This document shows, piece by piece, positions 38,155-64,000 of a DNA stretch of 64,000 bases. The notes below the pieces were generated by a model. It saw only the letters and a program-made list of their open reading frames with translations. It searched no databases and was not told the origin of the DNA. Source of the DNA: Paratrimastix pyriformis (Eukaryota; Preaxostyla; Paratrimastigidae); contig JAPMOS010000004.1 of assembly GCA_027972325.1 (NCBI GenBank), positions 992,001 to 1,056,000 on the forward strand, given 5' to 3'. Made by a program: the position numbers and the translations under genes. Each line of letters starts with the position of its first letter. Position 1 is the stretch's first letter.

Positions 38155-46052
<7,898 letters not shown>

Positions 46053-48716: not shown

Positions 48717-51574
48717 CCTCAGTCCGGAAAGCTAAAGGGGCACGACAAGGGCACGGACGCGGACGCGGACGCGGACAGGGCAGGCGCACACTCACACGCA
48801 TCCATCTCATCCCTGGCTAGCCCTCCGCTCTCGGGCCGCCAACCAGCCGCCTCATCGGGCAGACGATGCGATGCATGTCCCAACCTGGCCCCAGCACCGA
48901 TCGTCATGTCTGCCACTGTGTGTGGTTGTGCTGCTGTGCTGTGCTGTGCTGTGCTGTGCTGCTGCTGCTGCTGCTGCTGCTGCTGTGCTGTTGCTGCTGC
49001 TGCTGTGCTGTGCTGTGCTGTGCTGTGCTGTGCTGTCTGTTGTCCGGCGGATGGAGTGGTTTGGGCCGGGGAAGGAACGGCGGCAGTCCCTCAGAGAGCC
49101 CTTTACCCACCTCCTGCCCACCGCAGTCCCCTCGTCGGCTCGGCTTCCCCACCGCCGCCTCCCGCCGGCTCCCAGCCGCCGCCTCCCGTCACCCCCACCG
49201 GCGCAGCGGCCACCACCCCGCCCCCATCCACGCGAACCCTCACAGCCACCAGCCCACGGCCCGTTCTGCCCACGCCACCGCCCCCGCCGCCCGTACTGGT
49301 GGCGCCCCCATGCCGGCCCGCCACAACGCCACCAGCAGGCCCGGGATATGGCCGGGGACAGGGAGGAGGTCGAGGCGGCATCCGCTGTCGATGAGGATGA
49401 TGACGCGTCCGAATCGATGGCTGAGCGCGGTGGTCCTGTCGAGACAGGTCGGCCGGGTCCCGTGCCACCCCAACCGCCCGCTGTCATACCCGCGCCATCG
49501 CAGCAGCTGCCGATGCCATCACAACAACCTCAAGGCAGCACAGGTGACACCACCCCTCCGCCGCCCCTTCCCGACCCATCGTCCCCCACCCGCGCCGCCT
49601 CCCCCACCCGCCTGCGCACCTCAAAATCCACGGGGTCGCTGCCCGCCCCCTTCGCGCTCACATCCCCGCCGTCATCGCCGGCACTTCAGCCCCAACCCCC
49701 ACCAGCATCACCGCCGCCTCCTCCCACCACCTCCCCGCTTGATCACAACGCCACTCCCGACGGCGGCCCGCCCCGCGCCGCCCTAGTAAATGTCCCCCGT
49801 GATGGCGAAGAGGATGGTGAGCTGTCCACACCACCCCCCGGCACTTCGGTACCTCCGTCCCCTCCGAGCAGCCCCCGGCCCCTGCCTCCCCCGGCCCCGG
49901 CCCCCGCCGCCCGGCCGCTCTGCACCACCCCGGCCCTGGCCCATCTCGCCGCCCAGGCAGCCGAGGAATCCCTTCTCGAACAGCCCCCGCCGCCGCACGG
50001 TAGGGTGCCTTCCCTCCCCCGGTTCACCCCCACTCCCGACCTGCTCCAGCAGCGGCGCGCCCAGACGGCCACCCCTGCCTCGCCCTCGCTCCTGCTGCCG
50101 CCCCCGCCGCCCCCCTCCGTCCGGGTCTCGCCCTCCTTCCTGCAGGCAAGCGGCAGTGTGACTCCTTCGCCATCTCCTCCCAGCAGCCCGGCCCCGTCCC
50201 CCGCGCCCCCTCCTCTCAACCTCAGCCCCGTCGAGACGCTCCATCGACTGGCCGTCGCGCTGGTGGGCAGCCCATCCCGCCACCACCCCGCCACCCGCCC
50301 CTCGCCGCCATGCGCCGCTCGCTGCCCGCGGCCCACTCGCCCAGCGCCTTCTCATTTGGGCACGCCCTGCCGCACCGTGGTTATGGCCACCGACTGGGCC
50401 TGGCCGACCTGCTCGCCACCTCGACCGTCCTCGAGGATGCTGCTGTTCCCCCGGTGAGCACCGCCAGGGGTATGTCACCCCGGGGGAATCGACTCCTCGA
50501 GGGTATGTCACCCCGGGGGCAGCAGGGTATGTCACCCCGCGGACAGGGTATGTCACCCCGCGGGCAGCAGGGTATGTCACCCCGGGGGCAACAGGGTATG
50601 TCACCCCGGGGACAGGGTATGTCACCCCGGGGACAGGGTATGTCACCCCGGGGGCAGGGTATGTCACCCCGGGGGCAACAGGGTATGTCACCCCGGGGGC
50701 AACAGGGTATGTCACCCCGGGGGCAGTCCGCCCGCCAGGCTACCAGGCTCAGGTCATCCCAGGAAGCCGTTTCCCCGAGGCCCCCGCGACGTGGCGGTGG
50801 GGCCGCCTCGGCAGTACCTCCGCTGCTCATCCCCCCGTCCGTCATCGAGCCCATCCCCATCCCCATACCCATACCCATCCCATCGCCATACGTCATCCAA
50901 TCATCATCATACAATCATCATCATCCAATCATCATCAGCATTAGCAGCAGGCATTCAATCATCATCACCCTGTTCACCACCACCACCCCACTCTCCTTCT
51001 GCCCCAGCTCGGCGTCGTCCCACGCGGCCCGCCACTCCTCTCAGCAGCATCCCGACCTGCCTCCCGGCCCCCGCGCCGTGGCGGCCGCCCTCCGGGCGCA
51101 CCCGGCCGCCCCGCCTCCCACAAATCCCCATCCGCCACCAGAGACCCACCGTCCACACACCCCGGCAGCCACCACCGCCACCACCACCGCCACTGCTGCT
51201 GCCCCGCCGACCCACTGGCGGCCCCTGCGCACCCACGCCCCCGCAAAACCCGCCCCCAATGCCGGGAGTCGGGCGCTGGTGGGTGAGAACGGTGGGGGAG
51301 TGTCGACTGCGACCGGGGGAGGTGGCGACCACAGGGTCCCCTCGGCCTGGTCGGAAAGCCCCGAGGAGGAGGCACGCGAACGGTGCGCGGAGATGGTGGC
51401 TGAGGCCGAGCAGGCATTGATCGAGTCCGTCGTGCCCTCTTGATGTGGGTTTTTGATGTGGCGCTGTTGGTGGTTTGGATGGGGGTTTTCTTATTTTAAT
51501 GGTTTGTTGTTGTTGTTGGTTTGGATGGGGGACAAAAAAACTCATCATCCAATCATCATTCCAATCGTCCTCGT

Positions 51575-54751: not shown

Positions 54752-57700
54752 ATGGCATCTTCCGGAGGATTTACTGGTTCCGGACTTGCGGTGGCCCAAG
54801 GTGAGGGTTGGGCGGGCAGCAAGCAGCGGGATATGTTGACCATTCTGCGAGAGGTCGATCGGCAGCGCGACCAGCTTCAGGATCAGCTCGACACTCGATG
54901 TGAGCAACTCGCGGCTGCCACGGCGCAGAACGAGGACTTTATGAAGAAAATGCAACAAGCCAAAATTCAATTCACCTCTCTGCAGACCCAGTTCGAGATG
55001 GCGAATTCTGCGCGGAATGGCATGGAGAAAGAAATCCACTCGCTCAGGATTCAGGTCTGTCGACTTGGGCCTCTTGGTTTGACTTACTTCCGACAGTTGG
55101 ACGAAAGCATCACTGAGAGAGAGCGATTTCGCCAGCACGTCTGCTGTTTTTTTTCTCCTTGGTTGATTCACCATCACGACCCGGGCAGCTGCAAACGAGT
55201 GAAGCCGAGCGACAACGGCTCACAGACGATCTCCGAGAGTTGGTTAAAGAAAACCAGGTCTGCCGCAAAGGGTTACTCGCATTCCTCTTCATGCTGGACC
55301 TAGGCACTCAGCACCAACAATGCCATGCTCTCGGGAAAGCTTGAGCAAACCCAGAATGATTGCCAGCGAACAAATGCGGCTCTCGGTCAATGGGAAAAGG
55401 TTTTTCGCCTTTACTATCCTCCTCCTCCTCCTCCTCCTCCTCCTCCTCCTCCTCCTCCTCCTCCTCCTCCTCCTCCTCCTCCTCCTCCTCCTCCTCCTCC
55501 TCCTCCTCCTCCTCCTCCTCCTCCTCCTCCTCCTCCTCCTCCTCCTCCTCCTCCTCCTCCTCCTCCTCCTCCTCCTCCTCCTCCTCCTCCTCCTCCTCCT
55601 CCTCCTCCTCCTCCTCCGCCCTCCATCCACCCCACCCCTCCAACTCACCCCATCTATCCACCTCCAACCGCTCTTCTCTTTCACACAGCTTACCGCAAGC
55701 AAAGAACTCGAACGAGTCCACATCCTGCAAAATTGCGAGGTCTGCTTTCTTCGATTTCTTTCCATCTCAACCCGGATGCTTTCCAACCCACTTGATGTCC
55801 AACCCCATGCTTTCAACCCCATGCTTTCCATCCCACCCCACATGCTTTTCCCCCTCAATTTTCTCTCAGAGTCTGGCCAACGAACAAGCCACACTTCAGC
55901 ACGCTTTGCACGAGAACGAAATGACCTGTGAGGGTCTCCGAACGGGCCTCCAGGCACGCGACCAGCAACTGCAATCCCTGGCCGCCCAATTGCATGAGGC
56001 GTACGAAGCGAATCAAAACCTGGCCACCAATATGGAGACAACGCACATACAGTACCAGGGTCTGCCGCCCGATGATGCGTGTTGGCTGGCTGGCTGACTG
56101 GTGTGGGATGTGGGATGCTGGGTTCGTGGAAGAGCGTTCGTGGGTCGTGCCCATTCATCTTCTTCCAACCCCCAATAGCGCTCACTGAGGAGTTGAACCG
56201 GGCCAAGGAAATCATTTCTCGGCTCTATCAGGACCAACAACATCTCAGTCTGTCGCCATCCTGCCTTTTATTGTGCACCCCTGTCCATTTTGCGTGTCGC
56301 CTTCTGACCCGTTTTCCTGACCCGTTTTTCTGACCTCCTGTCGACCGCTTTGGCAGTCACGGACAAAGACGCGCAAGCCATGCTCTCCGCCATGGCATCT
56401 GAGAAGCAAACCCGCGCGGAAACGGAGGTCTGTCCCGGGTCTCGAATCGCGACCCAGGCAGAAGATCGCAATCGACGGTGGGTCAATCATATGTCATGGT
56501 CTTCTCATCTCTCCATCCCAGATCGCCCGTCTGATGGCCTTGACGAGCAGCCTTCAGGAGCAGCGGGACGCCCTCGCGGCCCAGTCGTCGGCCATGGAAG
56601 GCCTTGCGGGGGACGAGGTCGCAATAGATCTCAAACTGCGCGCCTTTCTTTCTCTCACTCGCACTTCACAGTCCCTTTGCTCCACACACACTTCACTTGT
56701 TTCGCGAACGAGCCTCATTCTCTCCCCACATGGTGCTGACGTAGCGGAAACGAGTCCAAGAACTCGAGAGGCTTCTCGCCCAAACTCGGGGCGACCAGTG
56801 CGCCGCTCAGGGCCAATTGGAGGTCCGTAGCATCGCCAGCAGCCTCTCTTCTTTCTCGCTTCCCACTCTCGTCGACCCTCCGCTCACTTTTTCCCTTCTC
56901 ACTCGGCTGGCTGGCGATGCAGGGCGTGCAGGCCGAGATCGCACGACGCGAGACCAAGATCACAGAACTTCAGGCGTCTGTAGGAACCTCTTTCATTTTC
57001 TCCGCACGTCCTTTCGCCCGTCCTTTCGCACCTCCTTCATTGATCCTGCTTCTTTTCTCCCCAGCGAAAATAACTCCCGGACGCGGCAGTGCGCCCAACT
57101 AATGGACTCCAATGCGAAACTCGAAGGGCAGGTCAATGCCCTGCGAACGTCTGCCACTTTGCCGTTCGCCTCTCCTCATCCAGGCCAACCTCTTGCAGGG
57201 AGTTGGGCCAGGCCAGCCGGATCAAGGACGATACCCTTGCCCAGACCAGCCGGGTCCGCGGCCAGACGAGGCAACTCGAGGCCACTGTCGCCCATCTCCA
57301 GTCAGGTTCGTATCATCGGATTTTGGCCGGGGAGGCTCGGTGGCTTTACGATGATGAATCAATTCGCTGGTGCGTGCCCGTAGCTCTGGAGGAGTCCCAA
57401 AAGGAGGCGGCGGCCCTCCACGATGAACTCACCCGGGCCCGCAACGAGCATGCCTCCGCCATCGCCCGAACACAGTCCCGTTGCGAGAAGGTCTCCGCAC
57501 TGCGTCGAGGATGTTCGAGGGTGACTGATCTTTTTTTGTTTTTTGCGCGGGCGGTTGACTGGGGGAGTAGCGAGTTGGCGATCTCGAGGCCGAACTGGGC
57601 GCCGTTCGGCAGGCGTACACCAGCCTGGCCGCCGATCACGCCAAGATGCGCGATTTGTATGCCTCCCTCATCGGTGCTCCCGCAGCCGCACGGGTCCGCA

Positions 57701-58355
57701 CGTTTTCATTCAGTTTGTCACAAGTGGGTGGACGAGCATGTTGAATGTGTGTGTCCATGCTTCATTCATCTTTCCGTTTGCCATGGTTTCCGACTCACAG
57801 GATGTGCCCGTGCCGCAACCTCCGATCTACGTTCCACAGTATACCCTTTCTGCCACATCGCGCCCTGTTCCGCCCCCGTCGTCCCTGACCGCCGTATCGG
57901 CCCTCACATCCTCGGCCTCAGGGCGGGCTTCCGCCGCTGCCCTTCCCATCGGCCAGCCACCCCGACCCTCCCTGCCTTCATCCACGGTCACCTCCACGAC
58001 GTTCTCGTTCTCCTCCGCCCCCCAGCCCACTCGTCCGACCCCCCCTCCCTCTGCTCGGCCCTCTATCACCCCCTGCTGCCCCGCGCGCAGCCACCGCCGC
58101 ATCAACCAGAGGCAGCAGCAGCATCTCAACGATGCCTCTCGCCTCCGGCTCTGCCGAGCGGATGCCCCCGAGGACCGCCCCACTCCCTGCGAGCCCAGGG
58201 TCAGGCCCACCCGGGCGGGTGTTGGACATTCGCTCCCCGGCCGCACCCGTCCTCACCTCACCTGGCCACGCCCCGCGGCCCCTCCCCCATCGCACGTTCG
58301 GCCGTGGAATGCAGGAGCCGGACGAGATGGGATGATACTCTTACAAAAACGGTGA
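54752..58355 (+). CDS. Coiled-coil protein, possibly centrosomal or basal-body (CEP135/TSGA10-like)
   Basis: Sixteen exons. Start MASSGGFTGSG at 54,752; introns at 55,055-55,096, 55,139-55,188, 55,258-55,303, 55,399-55,688, 55,740-55,869, 56,060-56,178, 56,248-56,356, 56,428-56,521, 56,618-56,744, 56,823-56,922, 56,975-57,064, 57,149-57,198, 57,306-57,383, 57,491-57,570 and 57,694-57,800. Every joint keeps the frame. The product is nearly continuous heptad-like helix (ILREVDRQRDQLQDQLD, QTSEAERQRLTDDLRELVKE, ELTRARNEHASAIARTQSR), then a Pro/Ser-rich tail from DVPVPQPPIYVPQY to a TGA at 58,353. The opening helix recalls CEP135/TSGA10, but coiled coils attract false matches, so only the structural class is secure. 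Thirteen of its 15 introns start GTC. Confidence 0.75.
55415..55620. repeat. (TCC)n tract in an intron of the coiled-coil gene
   Basis: About 68 TCC triplets without interruption inside the 290-nt intron at 55,399-55,688. In the transcript it acts as one very long pyrimidine stretch before the acceptor. Poly-Pro, poly-Leu, poly-Ser, poly-Glu, poly-Arg and poly-Gly frames here are artefacts. Confidence 0.95.
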
Positions 58356-58466
58356 AGGTTGGGCCACCCAAGCCCGGCGCCTCGCTGGGTTCTTTCTCTC
58401 ATCCCCCCCCCCCCCCCCCCCCCCCCTCCCGTATTTATCTGGCGGTGACTGTTCGTACGTCGTATT

Positions 58467-61457
58467 CTATGGCGGAATTGAGCTTACCTCGACGGTACGA
58501 TTGCCGGGGTAGTAGACGACAAAGGTGAGATCGACGGGGAAGGAACCCGGGTTGACGCACTTGGCCCCTTGGTACTCGGCCGTCAAATGGGTGCAGGAGT
58601 CGGCCAGAAGAAGCTTGAAAAAAGAAAAACATTGGAGAGAAAAAGCCTTCGATGGGAATCGAACCCATTACCTCCCGCTTACTAAGCGGGTGCTCTGCCA
58701 AGTAAGCTACGAAGGCGAACATACTGTTACATGGGGTGGGCGCGCCGTGATATCATTTCTCCCTCACACGACAAAGACAAAGGGCAGACCATGTGCGGGA
58801 TGGGGTAGAGCTGCATGGCATGGTCGAGGTTCCACGCGATGGGAACCGTTTGGGGGCAGAGCGGGCAGAGGTGCGCCTGGTCGAACACTGTCTTCACCAT
58901 CTGTCCGTCGCCCGCCCATGCGTTGAAGAATGTGTGGACGCGGAAAAGGTTCGTGTGATGACAGACCGCCATGTACAGATTGCGAGTCTCCTGCTGCAGA
59001 GCAGAGTCCTCCTCCAGGGCCATGGAGGGGTCTTGGGTCGCCTGCGGGGTCTCGTCTGCGGCAAGAGTGGGCGCGGAGGGGGAGGTGAGGGGGGAGGGGG
59101 GATGGTGACACCAACGTTCGTCCACTCCTCGAAGCTCTGTCGAGTCGATATCGCCACGGGATGGTAGCCGGGGGTACAGACCGGGGTTGGACAGCCCCTC
59201 GCGGAGGGCTTCGCCCTCTGGGGATGGCGACGGGGCGGGGACTGGGGTCACTCCTGCGGCCTCCGCTACTGCTCCTGCTGCTGCTGGGGCCTGGGTTTGG
59301 GACGGGGGCAGCCCGGTCCCCGCGGGTGCGATCTGGGGTGGGTTCAGGGCGAAACACGACCGCCGGATCTTTTGAAGCAGGTTGTCACGATAGATGACAA
59401 TTGTCTGGGTGAAGAAGGCCAACCTGCGTGGGGGGGGGGGGGGAACAGGAGATTATGACGTGGACGGGGCGGATGACAACCATCGCCCGCCCGGCCCGCG
59501 GCTGACCTGACAGGATTCGTGGCGAGGGTGACTCGGAGCCCCGGGACGGCCAGCAGGGGCGCCACCAACGAGGGCGGCAAGGGCGCCCGGGGCAGCAGTG
59601 GCCCGCTGCTCAGATCGTTAGGCCCAGGCACAAGAACTAGAACAACAGAAAGGTTGGCGGATCGAATCACGGCGGCGACAATTTTTTTTTCTTCCCCCAG
59701 ACCGAATCTGCTGTGAGCCACCAAGCGGGGACACTCCTGGATCAGGGCGGCCAGCTGGCCGAAGAGGTCGCGCACACGTTGGTGGTCCCCGGGGCCCTGC
59801 AGACAAGAGGATGGTTCCGATGATGAATGAACTCCAACACCCACGCGTCGCCACCCCCCCCCCTCCACCCCGCCTGCCGCCCCGCCCCCATCCCATTGTG
59901 TAACCTTCTGATTCTCCAACAAGGGATCGAGTGCAAAGGGGGGCGGTGATTCAGGGGGGGCGATCGTGGGCGGGAGTGGGATGGTTTGAGGGGGGAGAGC
60001 CACCAATTTTTTTAGGGGGGATAGCCACCATTTTTTTTTTTCAGCAACAATATGGGATGAATTCCCATCAATCATATTGTGACCTATCCCCAGACCTGGG
60101 GCATGGGTTTGGAGGCGAAACTGCCCATCAGAACGAAGACAAGCGGAGGCACGTCCACCTCGTTGTATCCGTGCAGCATCACCGCCAACTTCTCCAGCAC
60201 CTGCACAGGGGTCGTGGGATGGGGGGGGGGGGGGTGGATGTGGTTATGACGACGATGACCCCGTGGACAGGGCCTATCCACTCATCATGATCGTGGTGGT
60301 CATCACAGCGGGCGAGACATGGGTGGAGAGGGGCGGGAGTGGTGGGAAAACGCCCAGCGAATGAGGACATGAAGACGAGACATGGCGTGGGGTGTGGTGG
60401 ACGTGGTGTGACGGGGGAACGGACGCGGGCCGATCCAGCCAGACGTCCAACGACAAGAAGTGACGTATAGATCACCCTGACGTATATATCACCCTGACGT
60501 ATATATCACCCTGACGTATATATCACCCTGACGTATATATCACCCTAGACGAGGCATGGTGCGAGGTGCGTGGTGGGTGGCATGTGGTGGAGCGTGGTGA
60601 CGGATGCGAATCCTAGCCAGACACCCCGATTTTTACCATTAAGGAAGGCGCGTATACCCATGGCATTTGTTTTCGGGGAAACGAACAGCCGAATTGCGAA
60701 GAGTGTTGTTGACGCGATCCTCCGACACATCGCCGAGAGGGTGCGGGACAGGGCATCCATGAATTTCTCATCAAGACGAGGCATAGCGTGGGTGGTGGCA
60801 TGACGTGGGGTGTCATGGGGTGGGGTGTGGGGTGGGTGGTGTGATGGTGAAAATGGGGGTGCGGACCCTCGGCCGATCCAGCCAGACATCCGATGACATA
60901 AAGACATCCGTGGGGTGTGTGGGGTGTGTGGTGGGTTGCATACGATGGGTGCGGACCCTCGGCCGATCCAGCCAGACGTCCGACACGAAGACAAGCATGG
61001 CCTCCGAGCGGGTCTCCACTTGTCGCAGATGCTGTTGTGCGAGCAGGAGGCATGGGCGGAAGACGGGATGCCCGATGAGCAGTATGAACGGGACCGTTGT
61101 CTGTCCGTCTGTGGGACGGAACTAGTCGCGGGGGACGGGTGGATGAATTGGGGGCAGCAAGCACCTCAATACCCCCAGGCGCAAAAAAAACAAACAAACA
61201 AAAACAACAACACTGCGATCTCCGCCCAGACCGGCCTGGTGGGAACCGCCGGATATGGGGTCCGTCACGGATCCATTCCCTGCCCCTCCCATCTTGGAAG
61301 GGCATCAGATTAGTGATCCACCTTCAAGAACCATCATCGTCATTCCGTGTGTATGTTCAGATGGGACGGGGGGATTTTTGAAACACACAATATCATCCCG
61401 TCTTAGTGCTCCGTGCGGACCTCTTCAAAACACAAATCCAGATAACTTGCCGATTCC

Positions 61458-61514
<57 letters not shown>

Positions 61515-62928
61515 GTGTTCGACGCCGCGGCTTGGGTCTGCTCGTCCCCGGGGGTGATGACAGCATCGGCCGAGTCGACAGAACCGGCGCGGAGGAGGCC
61601 GGTGGGTGTGACCAGCTGCTTCAGGATCGGGTGGGCCCGCAGGGTGGCGTCCTGGCTCTCGTTCGGGGGCGAGCACATGAAGACGACGTGGAAGATTCCT
61701 GGAGGCGGTGGTCGGCGATCGGAGGGTGGAGGGATGGGGGATGAAGACCAGCTCAAGGTGGTGGGTGATGCCCACGGAAGGGGATGCTGGGACTGCACCT
61801 TGCCCAGAAATTGAGGAATTGGGTTGGATGCTGGTGACGTGTGACGGCGATGCGTGTGGGAGTTGGTGGTGGTGGAGGGCGAAAGAAAGTCGGGTGTGTA
61901 AGTGTGTATGTGCGCGTTTGCGTGTCGGGGGGGGGGGGGGGAGTGAGTGGGTGATAACCACGGACCGTTGAGGTCTCTGTAACCCTCGACCAGCACAAAG
62001 GTGCCATCGCCAAAGAAGCCCTCGCTCTTGCTCTGCCCATCGTGTGGGTGTGTGTGGGTGCACGTTAAAAAACGGTACGAGACGATATGACAGGGTGATT
62101 GGGGAGGGAGGGGATGGGTTGGAGAGGGGAGGAAGAGACCATCCCAGAGAGGTCCAATTCGATCGACCCCGAGGGGTCCTCCAGGTGGAATTTGCCCTCG
62201 GTCAGTTGGCACAGCAGCCCAAACAGGAATTTGTGGTGGCCCGAGGCCCCAATGAGCGAACTCACCTCGACAATCTACGACGGGGTTAGATCCACACCGG
62301 GGGGGTGATATATGAGGCTACCCCGGGGGGACAGCCACAGACAGGGCAGTAGACTTGCTTGCTCTGGGGTAACAGCGGCGGAACAAAGTTCTTCTGGCGA
62401 AGGAGCCGCTGCCGGAGCAGGTGATATCGATCATCTGCGAAGAATACCGGGGGGATGTGGGCCGTGTTACATATCGACGAATTACAGACTAAACATGGCA
62501 ATCTTGGCGGGGGCATCCCCAAAGAGGGCATGCGGTCCCGGGACACTGGAATATGATAAGATGATGGTTGGTCCGGCGGAGCCGCGGAATTGTACAGACA
62601 ATGCGAAAATTTTCCTGTGCGCATCGTAACGAAACTTTGGAACAGCCCGAGCATCAATAATTCGGAGATACTTGTGTTCGTCGTCGGGATTGATGTGAGC
62701 ATCAGGAGCCGCCTGCTCCAACTTCTGAATAGCGAGCTCGATATCTTTTGCTTCAGCTTTGCTATCTTTTATCGTCAGAGAGACTTCTTTGATGATGGCC
62801 GGAAACACCTCCTCGGCATTATCGAGAGTCCCCAAAAAAGAGAGCAATTTGGTCCTCGCCTCTGGGTCAAACCGCACACCACACATGGCAATTGATTTGT
62901 TCAATTTCCTTGACACTGCAGGATCCAT
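58467..62928 (-). CDS. POLE2: DNA polymerase epsilon subunit 2 (POLE2 / Dpb2)
   Basis: B-subunit of the leading-strand polymerase, also needed to assemble the CMG helicase at origins. The start at 62,928 gives MDPAVSRKLNKS. Collinear matches to human POLE2: FRYDAHRKIF (62,650), LFGDAPAKIAMF (about 62,530-62,495), LCQLTEGKFHLEDPSGSIELDLSG (62,230-62,150), VFVSDVWLD (about 60,995), VLEKLAVMLHGYNEVDVPPL (from 60,200), LVPGPNDLSSGPLLPRAPLP (59,650-59,590), IVIYRDNLLQKIRRSCF (59,400-59,350), HLCPLCPQTVPIAWNLDHAMQLYPIPHM (to 58,790), LLLADSC..CVNPGSFPVD (58,613-58,540). As in eukaryotic B-subunits, the phosphodiesterase motif is degenerate. Unusual insertions: polyQ near 61,515-61,455 and a Pro/Ala-rich stretch of about 100 residues (59,330-59,000). 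The last intron (58,614-58,789) holds a tRNA gene. The CDS probably ends NRTVEVSSIPP-TAG, with GTAAGC read as coding. Confidence 0.9.
58645..58716 (-). tRNA. tRNA-Thr (anticodon AGT)
   Basis: 72 nt folding into a full cloverleaf: 7-bp acceptor stem (GCCTTCG/CGAAGGC), D-arm GCTT/GAGC, anticodon stem CCCGC/GCGGG with loop TTAGTAA (anticodon AGT), T-arm ATGGG/CCCAT with loop TTCGATT. The B box GGTTCGATTCC is intact and CCA is not encoded, as in eukaryotes. Five T residues follow directly (58,640-58,644 on the other strand), a standard Pol III stop. It lies in the same direction inside the last POLE2 intron. Confidence 0.95.
60415..60995 (-). repeat. Decayed copies of a POLE2 exon end inside the next intron
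   Basis: The exon end coding VFVSDVWLDRPR with its donor GTCCGCACCC (about 60,995-60,950) is repeated at 60,900-60,855, 60,625-60,605 (partial) and 60,450-60,420. Each copy keeps GACGTCTGGCTGGATCGGCC or a close variant. They look like ghost exon ends made by tandem duplication across a donor site. Confidence 0.75.
60461..60545. repeat. 17-bp minisatellite, five copies
   Basis: Five direct copies of TGACGTATATATCACCC (the first has TAGA for TATA) in the POLE2 intron between the DVWLD and VLEKL exons. No spacers, so not CRISPR-like. Confidence 0.95.
61450..61515 (-). repeat. polyQ insertion in POLE2
   Basis: About 20 CAG/CAA codons in the exon that ends DLCFEEV before GTCCGC. Human POLE2 has no polyQ here. 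It probably forms a disordered loop. Confidence 0.85.
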
Positions 62929-62984
62929 CTTGCCTGAAATAGCCGCGTCGCCGACTTTGATTATTTGAAAGGCGCGGAGAGCTT
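62929..62984. promoter_or_regulatory. Divergent promoter: POLE2 / CDK8
   Basis: 56 bp between the two ATGs, with GACTTTGATTATTTGAAAGG at its centre. See the similar motif in the DOLPP1 spacer. Confidence 0.5.
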
Positions 62985-64000
62985 ATGTTTCCCTATAGGT
63001 CCGATAAGCACCCGGTGTGCTCGCCCGTCGAACGTCGAGCTGAACCCAGCTTTTCTCAGAAATCGCAAGCGGGTCAACCTTTCGCGGTACTCTTTTCACG
63101 ACCAGCGAGACAAGATCGGTGAAGGGACGTACGGCGTGGTTTATGCTGCCTTTGATCTCCATCGCCGTGTGAAAGTTGCCATCAAGAAACTCCGGACCAA
63201 CGAAACAAATAAAGAGATACCACTGAGTGGGTATCGGGAGATTGCTGTCTGTGCGGACTTTCATCTTGTCCCCTCGCTCATTTTGATCCACAGCTCCTCC
63301 GCGAGTTGCATCACGAAGATATCATTGCTCTCCAAGACGTTGTCGTTGACCCGGAAGAACGTTGCGTCTATCTTGTCTTCGATTGGGCGTGCATCGACCT
63401 TTTCGTCTGTGATCATCACCACACTCTGCCGCAACCCATGCTCACCTCCAACAGGATGCCCTCCAGAAAATGCGAAAAGCCTCAATACAAATTGACGCCG
63501 TTTTTGTCAAGACGGCCATGTGGCACATCCTCCGGGGTCTATCCTTCCTGCACACCAACTGGGTGATGCACCGGGACATGAAACCCAGCAATATCCTGCT
63601 CATGCCCGACGGGTCAGTCAAATTAGGTCTGCCTCACCCGCGGTCATATCCACACTCATTCCACACCCCGGGGCTCCAGCGGACTTTGGGCTGGCCCGGA
63701 TTTTTCAATCGCCGCCGGAACCGCTCTCCATCAATGGGGTGGTGGTGACCATCTGGTCGGTATTACCCCTCCCCTCCTCCTCCTCCTGCTGTGCGATGCG
63801 TCTGCCTGTGTGGGTTGGCACGGGCGCATCCTCGTTCGGATTCGTCCTGTTTCAAAATTCCATATCAAATGCTCCCAATGGGTATCTCCCACCCCCTCCC
63901 TCCATCTCTGAATGGGTATATCACCACCCCAGGTACCGCAGCCCAGAACTTCTCCTCGGCTCGCAGCACTACACCAAAGCCGTCGGTCTGATCCGCTCGT
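62985..64000 (+). CDS. CDK8: CDK8-type Mediator kinase (5' part, runs off right edge)
   Basis: Cyclin-C-dependent kinase of the Mediator kinase module, acting on Pol II and transcription factors in the nucleus. Exons 62,985-62,998, 63,060-63,246, 63,294-63,404, 63,455-63,626, 63,680-63,755 and 63,933-63,985; the next intron starts at 63,986. All six donors read GTC-N-G. The joined product starts MFPYRNRKRVNLSRYSFHDQ, then IGEGTYGVVY (P-loop), VAIKKL (catalytic Lys), LLRELHHEDIIALQDVVVDP, FLHTNWVMHRDMKPSNIL (catalytic loop), ADFGLARIFQSPPEPL, VVVTIWYRSPELLLG and SQHYTKAV. HANWVLHRDLKPANIL and [24 protein letters not shown] in human CDK8 are closer to this than other CDKs. The activation segment lacks a Thr for CAK phosphorylation, as in CDK8. 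The DFG here is DMG in human CDK8. Confidence 0.9.

Follow-up and report, generated by a model that had tools for sequence, protein, structure and literature searches.

The 5′ end of the U1 small nuclear RNA (snRNA) is regarded as nearly invariant in eukaryotes, because a change there should disable most introns at once. In this study, we analysed the 5′ splice sites (donors) of a 64,000-nucleotide stretch of the Paratrimastix pyriformis genome (contig JAPMOS010000004.1, positions 992,001 to 1,056,000 of the forward strand; hereafter the window), where a first-pass annotation had noticed that almost all introns start GTCYGY, together with donors and snRNA genes from the rest of the genome. In the Saccharomycotina, the donor preference has likewise moved, at +4 from A to U; the U1 sequence ACUUACC is reported as invariant wherever a U1 candidate was found (227/230 genomes and 9/10 outgroups), and a pseudouridine-to-A change at U1 position 5 is named as a possible compensation not seen in those yeasts (PMC10581693). 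P. pyriformis does show this change. Fritillaria borealis has departed from the usual donor genome-wide, with a U1 5′ end described as strictly preserved, a divergent U1 not being the route taken there (PMC13326754). An altered U1 5′ end is also reported from the diplonemid S. specki, but in one of two copies, which carries a C stretch and pairs comparably with the canonical logo (PMC12621601). The U1 of Giardia, another metamonad with an unusual donor, keeps the 5′ ACUUAC and forms a non-canonical U-U pair (PMC3510501). Nucleomorph U1s are described as retaining the usual motif (PMC6461891), Entamoeba is said to be without U1 (PMC13292270), and U1 was reported as not detected in Amoebophrya (PMC7789003). 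Our results indicate, with a probability of about 0.92, that the 5′ splice-site code and the U1 snRNA have changed together in P. pyriformis.

The genome-wide analysis covered a 56.06-Mb, 495-contig assembly of P. pyriformis (Preaxostyla, Metamonada); the published assembly is described as having 56.6 Mb, a GC content of 60.94%, a BUSCO score of 76.3% and an annotation made with RNA-seq intron hints (PMC10703272). Introns were collected by three routes, namely ab initio, by protein anchoring in eight CCT genes and by homolog anchoring of genes within the window. The eight CCT genes were aligned with mammalian chains, and GT...AG was the sole requirement, so this set speaks to the positions around the GT and not to the GT end itself. 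The results showed that position +3 in the 68 protein-anchored CCT introns was C in 53, T in 12, A in 3 and G in none, while +4 was T in 39, C in 25, G in 3 and A in 1. G was found at +5 in 62 introns and at -1 in 56, and A at -3 in 28. The majority donor was AAG/GTCTGT (the slash marks the junction), with G/GUYYGY as the looser form, +3 being a pyrimidine and not strictly C.

Eight full-length U1 genes were found on eight contigs, and every one begins AUACAGACCUU, not the canonical AUACUUACCUG; ATACAGACCTTGC was present in 8/8 full-length copies. The altered positions are 5 and 6 (UU to AG) and 11 (G to U). A DNA search for U1 returned the same eight loci plus one 32-base 3′ fragment and nothing further. 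All eight copies match RF00003 over its full length (positions 1-166 of 166, E 2e-10 to 4e-13), and AUAAUGUUUGG was aligned by eye with the Sm region of the model. The motif CCCATAA stands 59-60 bases upstream of all eight genes, whose flanks otherwise differ, and it was also found 66-67 bases upstream of four U6 genes and upstream of the one U2 copy read. At such near-fixed distances, CCCATAA appears to be a shared snRNA-type promoter. We read the eight genes as probable divergent U1, named by fold, promoter and complementarity instead of score.

A canonical U1 could instead lie in unassembled sequence, with the eight genes forming a variant class that serves some introns. By its BUSCO score, the published assembly does not hold the whole gene set (PMC10703272) and may have missed a canonical U1, which weighs against a change of all U1 genes; of the two U1 genes of S. 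specki, one is conserved and the other has a C-rich end (PMC12621601). We nevertheless give this explanation very little chance, because every one of the eight dispersed copies is altered and an exact search of the 56-Mb assembly returned no ATACTTACCTG, compared with 33 + 24 = 57 matches for a reversed control pattern. Furthermore, GTA or GTG donors made up only 3/68 of the protein-anchored CCT introns. P. pyriformis is unlike S. specki in that all eight full-length U1 copies found are changed and fit a new logo.

The U1 5′ end and the majority donor are exactly complementary. ACAGACCUU and AAGGUCUGU are exact reverse complements of each other, and U1 nucleotides 3-11, when reverse-complemented, give precisely AAGGTCTGT, the majority donor of the 68 CCT introns. 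The mean number of Watson-Crick pairs per donor (n = 68) was 6.38 with the observed U1 versus 4.87 with canonical U1, at least 7 pairs were formed by 32/68 versus 0/68 donors, and the predicted mean duplex energy was -9.35 versus -4.83. Compared with 463 exonic GT decoys, the U1-pairing base was enriched at each of the seven free donor positions, with P values that range from 0.013 at -2 to 1e-28 at +5 (3e-4 at -3, 5e-13 at +3 and 5e-16 at +4). The sharpest position was +3, where 65/68 donors carry a base that U1 G6 can accept, either C as a regular partner or T (U) by wobble pairing; canonical U1 would demand A or G there, and these were observed in 3/68 and 0/68 donors, respectively. A trade-off between exon and intron pairing was weak in the CCT set (rho -0.28, P = 0.02) and not significant in the larger ab initio set of 394 introns described below. 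Compared with canonical U1 and GTRAGT, the register, the pairs at G-1, G+1, U+2, G+5 and U+6 and the match to the whole Rfam model are shared, whereas U1 differs at positions 5, 6 and 11 and the donor has changed with it at +4, +3 and -3.

The first-pass annotation had proposed that the donor matches U6 instead of U1. This claim is not supported, as the U1 5′ end is altered and complements the majority donor without a mismatch. The complementarity of UCUGU to the U6 ACAGA box, which the annotation had pointed out, does hold, and reading the U1 and U6 genes, as it had suggested, showed a changed U1 5′ end in 8/8 copies alongside an intact box: four U6 copies were found at 96.7 bits, and AUACAGAGA is intact in 4/4, the ACAGAGA box being ordinary. 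Of the two causes that it offered, the changed U1 was seen in all eight genes, whereas a shift toward U6 pairing would not by itself account for the donors, as the U6 box is the same elsewhere. The box is reported as 100% conserved in 240 yeasts and outgroups, including organisms with a purine at +3 (PMC10581693). U6 alone therefore cannot explain the donor shift, and among the recognition RNAs the difference lies in U1. A shift to U6 pairing with an ordinary or irrelevant U1 draws on the complementarity of UCUGU to the intact box, but it is already contradicted by the U1 sequences. Nine consensus positions are complemented by the altered U1, among them -3 to +1, for which no pairing with U6 is known, and the same U6 box occurs with other +3 bases in the organisms of PMC10581693. 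We consider this explanation highly improbable, slightly more so than a canonical U1 hidden in unassembled sequence.

To place these donors against the genome at large, ab initio calling was started from a coding model built on 35 CCT exon matches, again with GT...AG as the sole requirement. Before further training (iteration 0), GTC began 75% of 210 introns. With the same CCT-exon-only model and the same single requirement, four 50-kb blocks placed arbitrarily on contigs C112, C441, C24 and C168 yielded 119 introns, of which 91 began with GTC, an excess with binomial P values of 4e-22 against the 33% of all GTs and 5e-15 against the 41% of exonic GTs that are GTC. After training with GT-AG kept, GTC was found in 362/394 introns, these being the introns with both flanking exons of at least 60 bases out of 491, with the 97 that have a shorter flank left out; G stood at +5 in 84.5%, and +4 was C in 52% and T in 35%. 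Training that began from a canonical CAG/GTAAGT matrix ended at GTCYGY, with GTC in 78.6% and GT in 81.5% of 439 introns. These results show the changed donor consensus outside the window as well.

A GC-rich, C-biased composition might by itself make GTC frequent, as 33% of GTs overall, and 41% of those in exons, are GTC. This has next to no probability, because GTCNG begins 79% of the 394 introns and only 9% of 4815 exonic GT decoys, and GTG, the commonest GT trinucleotide (40%), starts 10/394 ab initio introns and 0/68 CCT introns. GTC is far commoner at donors (362/394) than among exonic GTs (41%). Hexamers were also counted on both strands of 264 kb. GTCTGT occurred 214 times versus 152 expected (z 5.0) but came no higher than fourth of the GT hexamers, a ranking governed by repeats, and GTAAGT occurred 8 times versus 7.6 expected; hexamer counts alone are weak evidence.

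Individual junctions agreed with public sequences. EukProt entry GAFH01001239.1 is identical to our CCT-delta model over 460/460 residues, spanning seven introns (3 GTC and 4 GTT). From the form of its accession we take it to be of transcriptome-assembly type, and from its 100% identity presumably of the same species. The match fits all seven CCT-delta junctions, whose usage is thus supported by a protein that we judge to be transcript-derived. For CCT-eta, the ab initio introns were the same as all nine protein-anchored ones (8 GTC and 1 GTT), and the model (contig C28) was 537/537 identical to the public P. pyriformis "putative T-complex protein 1 subunit eta". The use of these nine junctions is therefore supported by the public annotation, which is described as RNA-seq-hinted (PMC10703272).

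Several results weigh against a joint change of donor and U1. An ab initio start without any constraint on intron ends did not recover GT donors and drifted to low-complexity sequence. Without the hard GT rule, 15% of the trained introns started with other dinucleotides, many of them in repeats, and the CCT junctions came out blurred when GT-AG was not demanded of the spliced alignment (GTC 15/66, GGT 11). The ab initio and protein-anchored methods coincided exactly on 56/68 CCT introns, and four of the seven CCT-delta junctions with transcript-type support are GTTTGY, not GTC. In the set of 394, C exceeded T at +4, and U1 A5 does not pair with C; these donors would pair slightly better with a hypothetical G at U1 position 5 (5.99 versus 5.82 pairs). 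With this excess of C, A5 is a closer match to the conserved genes than to the GC-rich bulk. At -3 in the same set, the U1-matching A (28%) was less frequent than C (38%), and the -2 and -3 preferences were weak overall. Finally, the U1 matches scored 50.8-60.2 bits, below the RF00003 gathering score of 69.5.

If donor and U1 did change together, U1 would bind the donor in the normal register, with A3-U+6, C4-G+5, A5-U+4, G6-C+3 and A7-U+2, and the helix would continue with C8-G+1, C9-G-1, U10-A-2 and U11-A-3. The AG at U1 positions 5-6 would compensate donor +4 and +3, and U11 would compensate -3. The expressed U1 5′ end would be AUACAGACC, not AUACUUACC, and after U1 departure the unchanged U6 AUACAGAGA would take over the donor. 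We infer from these sequences that the U1 genes are likely expressed, that pairing would proceed as drawn and that it would select the donors. U1 nucleotides 1-7 are AUACAGA, identical to the U6 stretch, so at +2 to +6 identical base pairs are possible with either RNA. It is somewhat probable, and clearly less certain than the joint change itself, that U1 has been rewritten into the recognition language of U6, with +2 to +6 read identically by both, so that the conflict between U1-preferred donors (+3A, +4A) and U6-complementary donors (+3C, +4U) would be gone genome-wide.

Other spliceosomal components were also examined. U2 gave nine full-length matches at 157-160 bits and one partial match, with the branch-recognition stretch kept in the one copy read, and U5 gave seven matches, with loop CGCCUUUUACUA kept in the one copy read. 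LUC7 matches were found at two loci. A METTL16 candidate matched PF05971 with 64.5 bits (cut-off 23) and carries an NPPF motif by eye, in a family that also matches in bacteria; a SNRNP27K candidate matched PF08648 with 34.7 bits (cut-off 23.1) and carries YMNRKG by eye. We take the Met of this motif to be the counterpart of Met141 of human SNRNP27K. Both proteins thus appear to be retained, as candidates, whereas the Saccharomycotina +4 switch is reported to accompany the loss of METTL16 and SNRNP27K (PMC10581693); in P. pyriformis it is U1 that changed.

The top PF06220 match (contig C86; L046:1485-1700) was rejected as U1-C, as it looks like a WBP4-type zinc finger. A U1-C candidate on contig C68 was read by eye as MPKY/YCDYCDVFLTHDSP/SVRKSHNNGWK/HKANV; three introns split its zinc-finger part, with donors read by eye as GTTCCG, GTCTGT and GTTTGT. 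A Trp presumably stands at the place of human Arg28. Human U1-C Arg28 is described as lying near the phosphate backbone, its change to alanine had no growth effect in yeast, and the contacts of human U1-C with the U1/donor duplex are reported to be confined to the backbone (PMC4383343). With backbone-only contacts, the protein shell should tolerate a new U1/donor sequence.

Two further observations concern the splicing machinery. A U12 snRNA candidate was found on contig C432 (103343-103517, minus strand); it matches the whole model with 44.9 bits, short of the gathering score of 53. It keeps the conserved 5′ part, and a minor spliceosome may exist in P. pyriformis, a metamonad. CTCAC was found near 3′ splice sites in 73/462 introns versus 17/286 mid-intron windows, and CTAAC was rare (2/462); the 462 introns count the CCT introns twice, as these are in both overlapping sets. 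This enrichment suggests that at the branch site, too, C may have taken the place that A or G holds in others.

Comparison with other lineages bears on the history of the change. Donors of the oxymonad Streblomastix are reported with +3 A, +4 U and +5 G in 21 introns (PMC1501061). Together with the ACUUAC of Giardia U1, the +3 A of Streblomastix indicates that the change at +3 and U1 position 6 probably arose on the Paratrimastix line. Alternatively, donors may first have drifted toward U6 (+4 U, then +3 C), weakening U1 pairing, with U1 altered afterwards; the present mechanism would be the same as in a joint change, and only the history would differ. The +4 U of the 21 Streblomastix introns (PMC1501061) may accordingly predate the split, and U1 nucleotides 1-7 now equal the U6 AUACAGA. 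Against such a drift, the METTL16 candidate with its NPPF motif is kept, and +4 U together with METTL16 is called generally incompatible in PMC10581693. We regard this history as possible but rather doubtful.

Within the window, the first-pass annotation had read 33 introns at positions 54752-64000, of which 30 were GTC, 27 had +5 G and none had +3 A. Our trained ab initio run gave a similar picture over the same positions, with 20 introns (19 GTC, 16 with +5 G and none with +3 A), a number that excludes CDK8, which was not called as a gene in that run. The whole window contained 124 trained ab initio introns, with GTC in 117, +5 G in 105 and +3 A in none. The identities that the annotation gave to CDK8 and POLE2 were borne out by PDB chains and that of FIG4 by 120 homologs, and no P. 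pyriformis entry was among the 120 FIG4 homolog matches listed. GTC began 4/4 introns of CDK8, 11/13 of POLE2 and 9/12 of FIG4; pooled, these 29 protein-anchored introns had GTC in 24/29, +5 G in 22/29 and one GTA, with some POLE2 and FIG4 junctions lying in weakly aligned stretches where they may be misplaced.

The 23 introns given here were chosen from these anchored genes and from one gene called ab initio; the full protein-anchored window set is 29. CDK8, on the plus strand, was anchored to the human CDK8 chain and has introns at 63247..63293 (GTCTGT), 63405..63454 (GTCTGT), 63627..63679 (GTCTGC) and 63756..63932 (GTCGGT). POLE2, on the minus strand and anchored to the human POLE2 chain, has introns at 62546..62599, 62435..62489 and 62275..62342 (all GTCTGT), 62033..62139 (GTCTCT), 61699..61965 (GTCCGT), 59797..60095 (GTCTGG), 59424..59506 (GTCAGC) and 58614..58789 (GTCTGC). 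The last of these encloses a tRNA-Thr (AGT) gene on the same strand (58644-58716, minus). The coiled-coil gene on the plus strand has introns, ab initio only, at 55055..55096 (GTCTGT), 55740..55869 (GTCTGC), 56060..56178 (GTCTGC), 56248..56356 (GTCTGT) and 56428..56521 (GTCTGT). Introns of FIG4, on the minus strand, were at the same place in 118/120 homolog alignments for 44989..45199 (GTCTGC), in 117/120 for 44175..44711 (GTCCGC), and in 120/120 for 44865..44930 (GTCTGC), 43761..44069 (GTCCGT), 43282..43662 (GTTCGC, not GTC) and 41536..41928 (GTCTCT). Separately, the Pro-rich gene region at 50440-50730 contains tandem GGGTATGTCACCCCGGGG-type units, and similar GACGTATATATCACCCT units occur near 60460-60545.

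Searches of the open-licence PMC literature listed no report of a GTC donor consensus, in line with the first-pass annotation, which knew of no described genome with GTCYGY, and none of a genome in which all U1 genes changed to match a changed donor. Where the P. pyriformis genome paper mentions introns and splicing, it does so in methods and references and not with regard to splice sites (PMC10703272). Extrapolating from 394 introns in about 0.3 Mb, P. pyriformis probably has tens of thousands of introns. If U1 has indeed been rewritten into the recognition language of U6, P. pyriformis would be the first eukaryote known to have replaced the entire U1/5′ splice-site code of its major spliceosome. 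Default donor models would miss most of its introns, which matters for gene prediction in this group. An intron-rich genome with both partners changed would make global shifts of the recognition code directly testable, opening tests of the separate roles of U1 and U6 at +3 and +4 and of whether U6 m6A (METTL16) constrains +4 once U1 no longer does.

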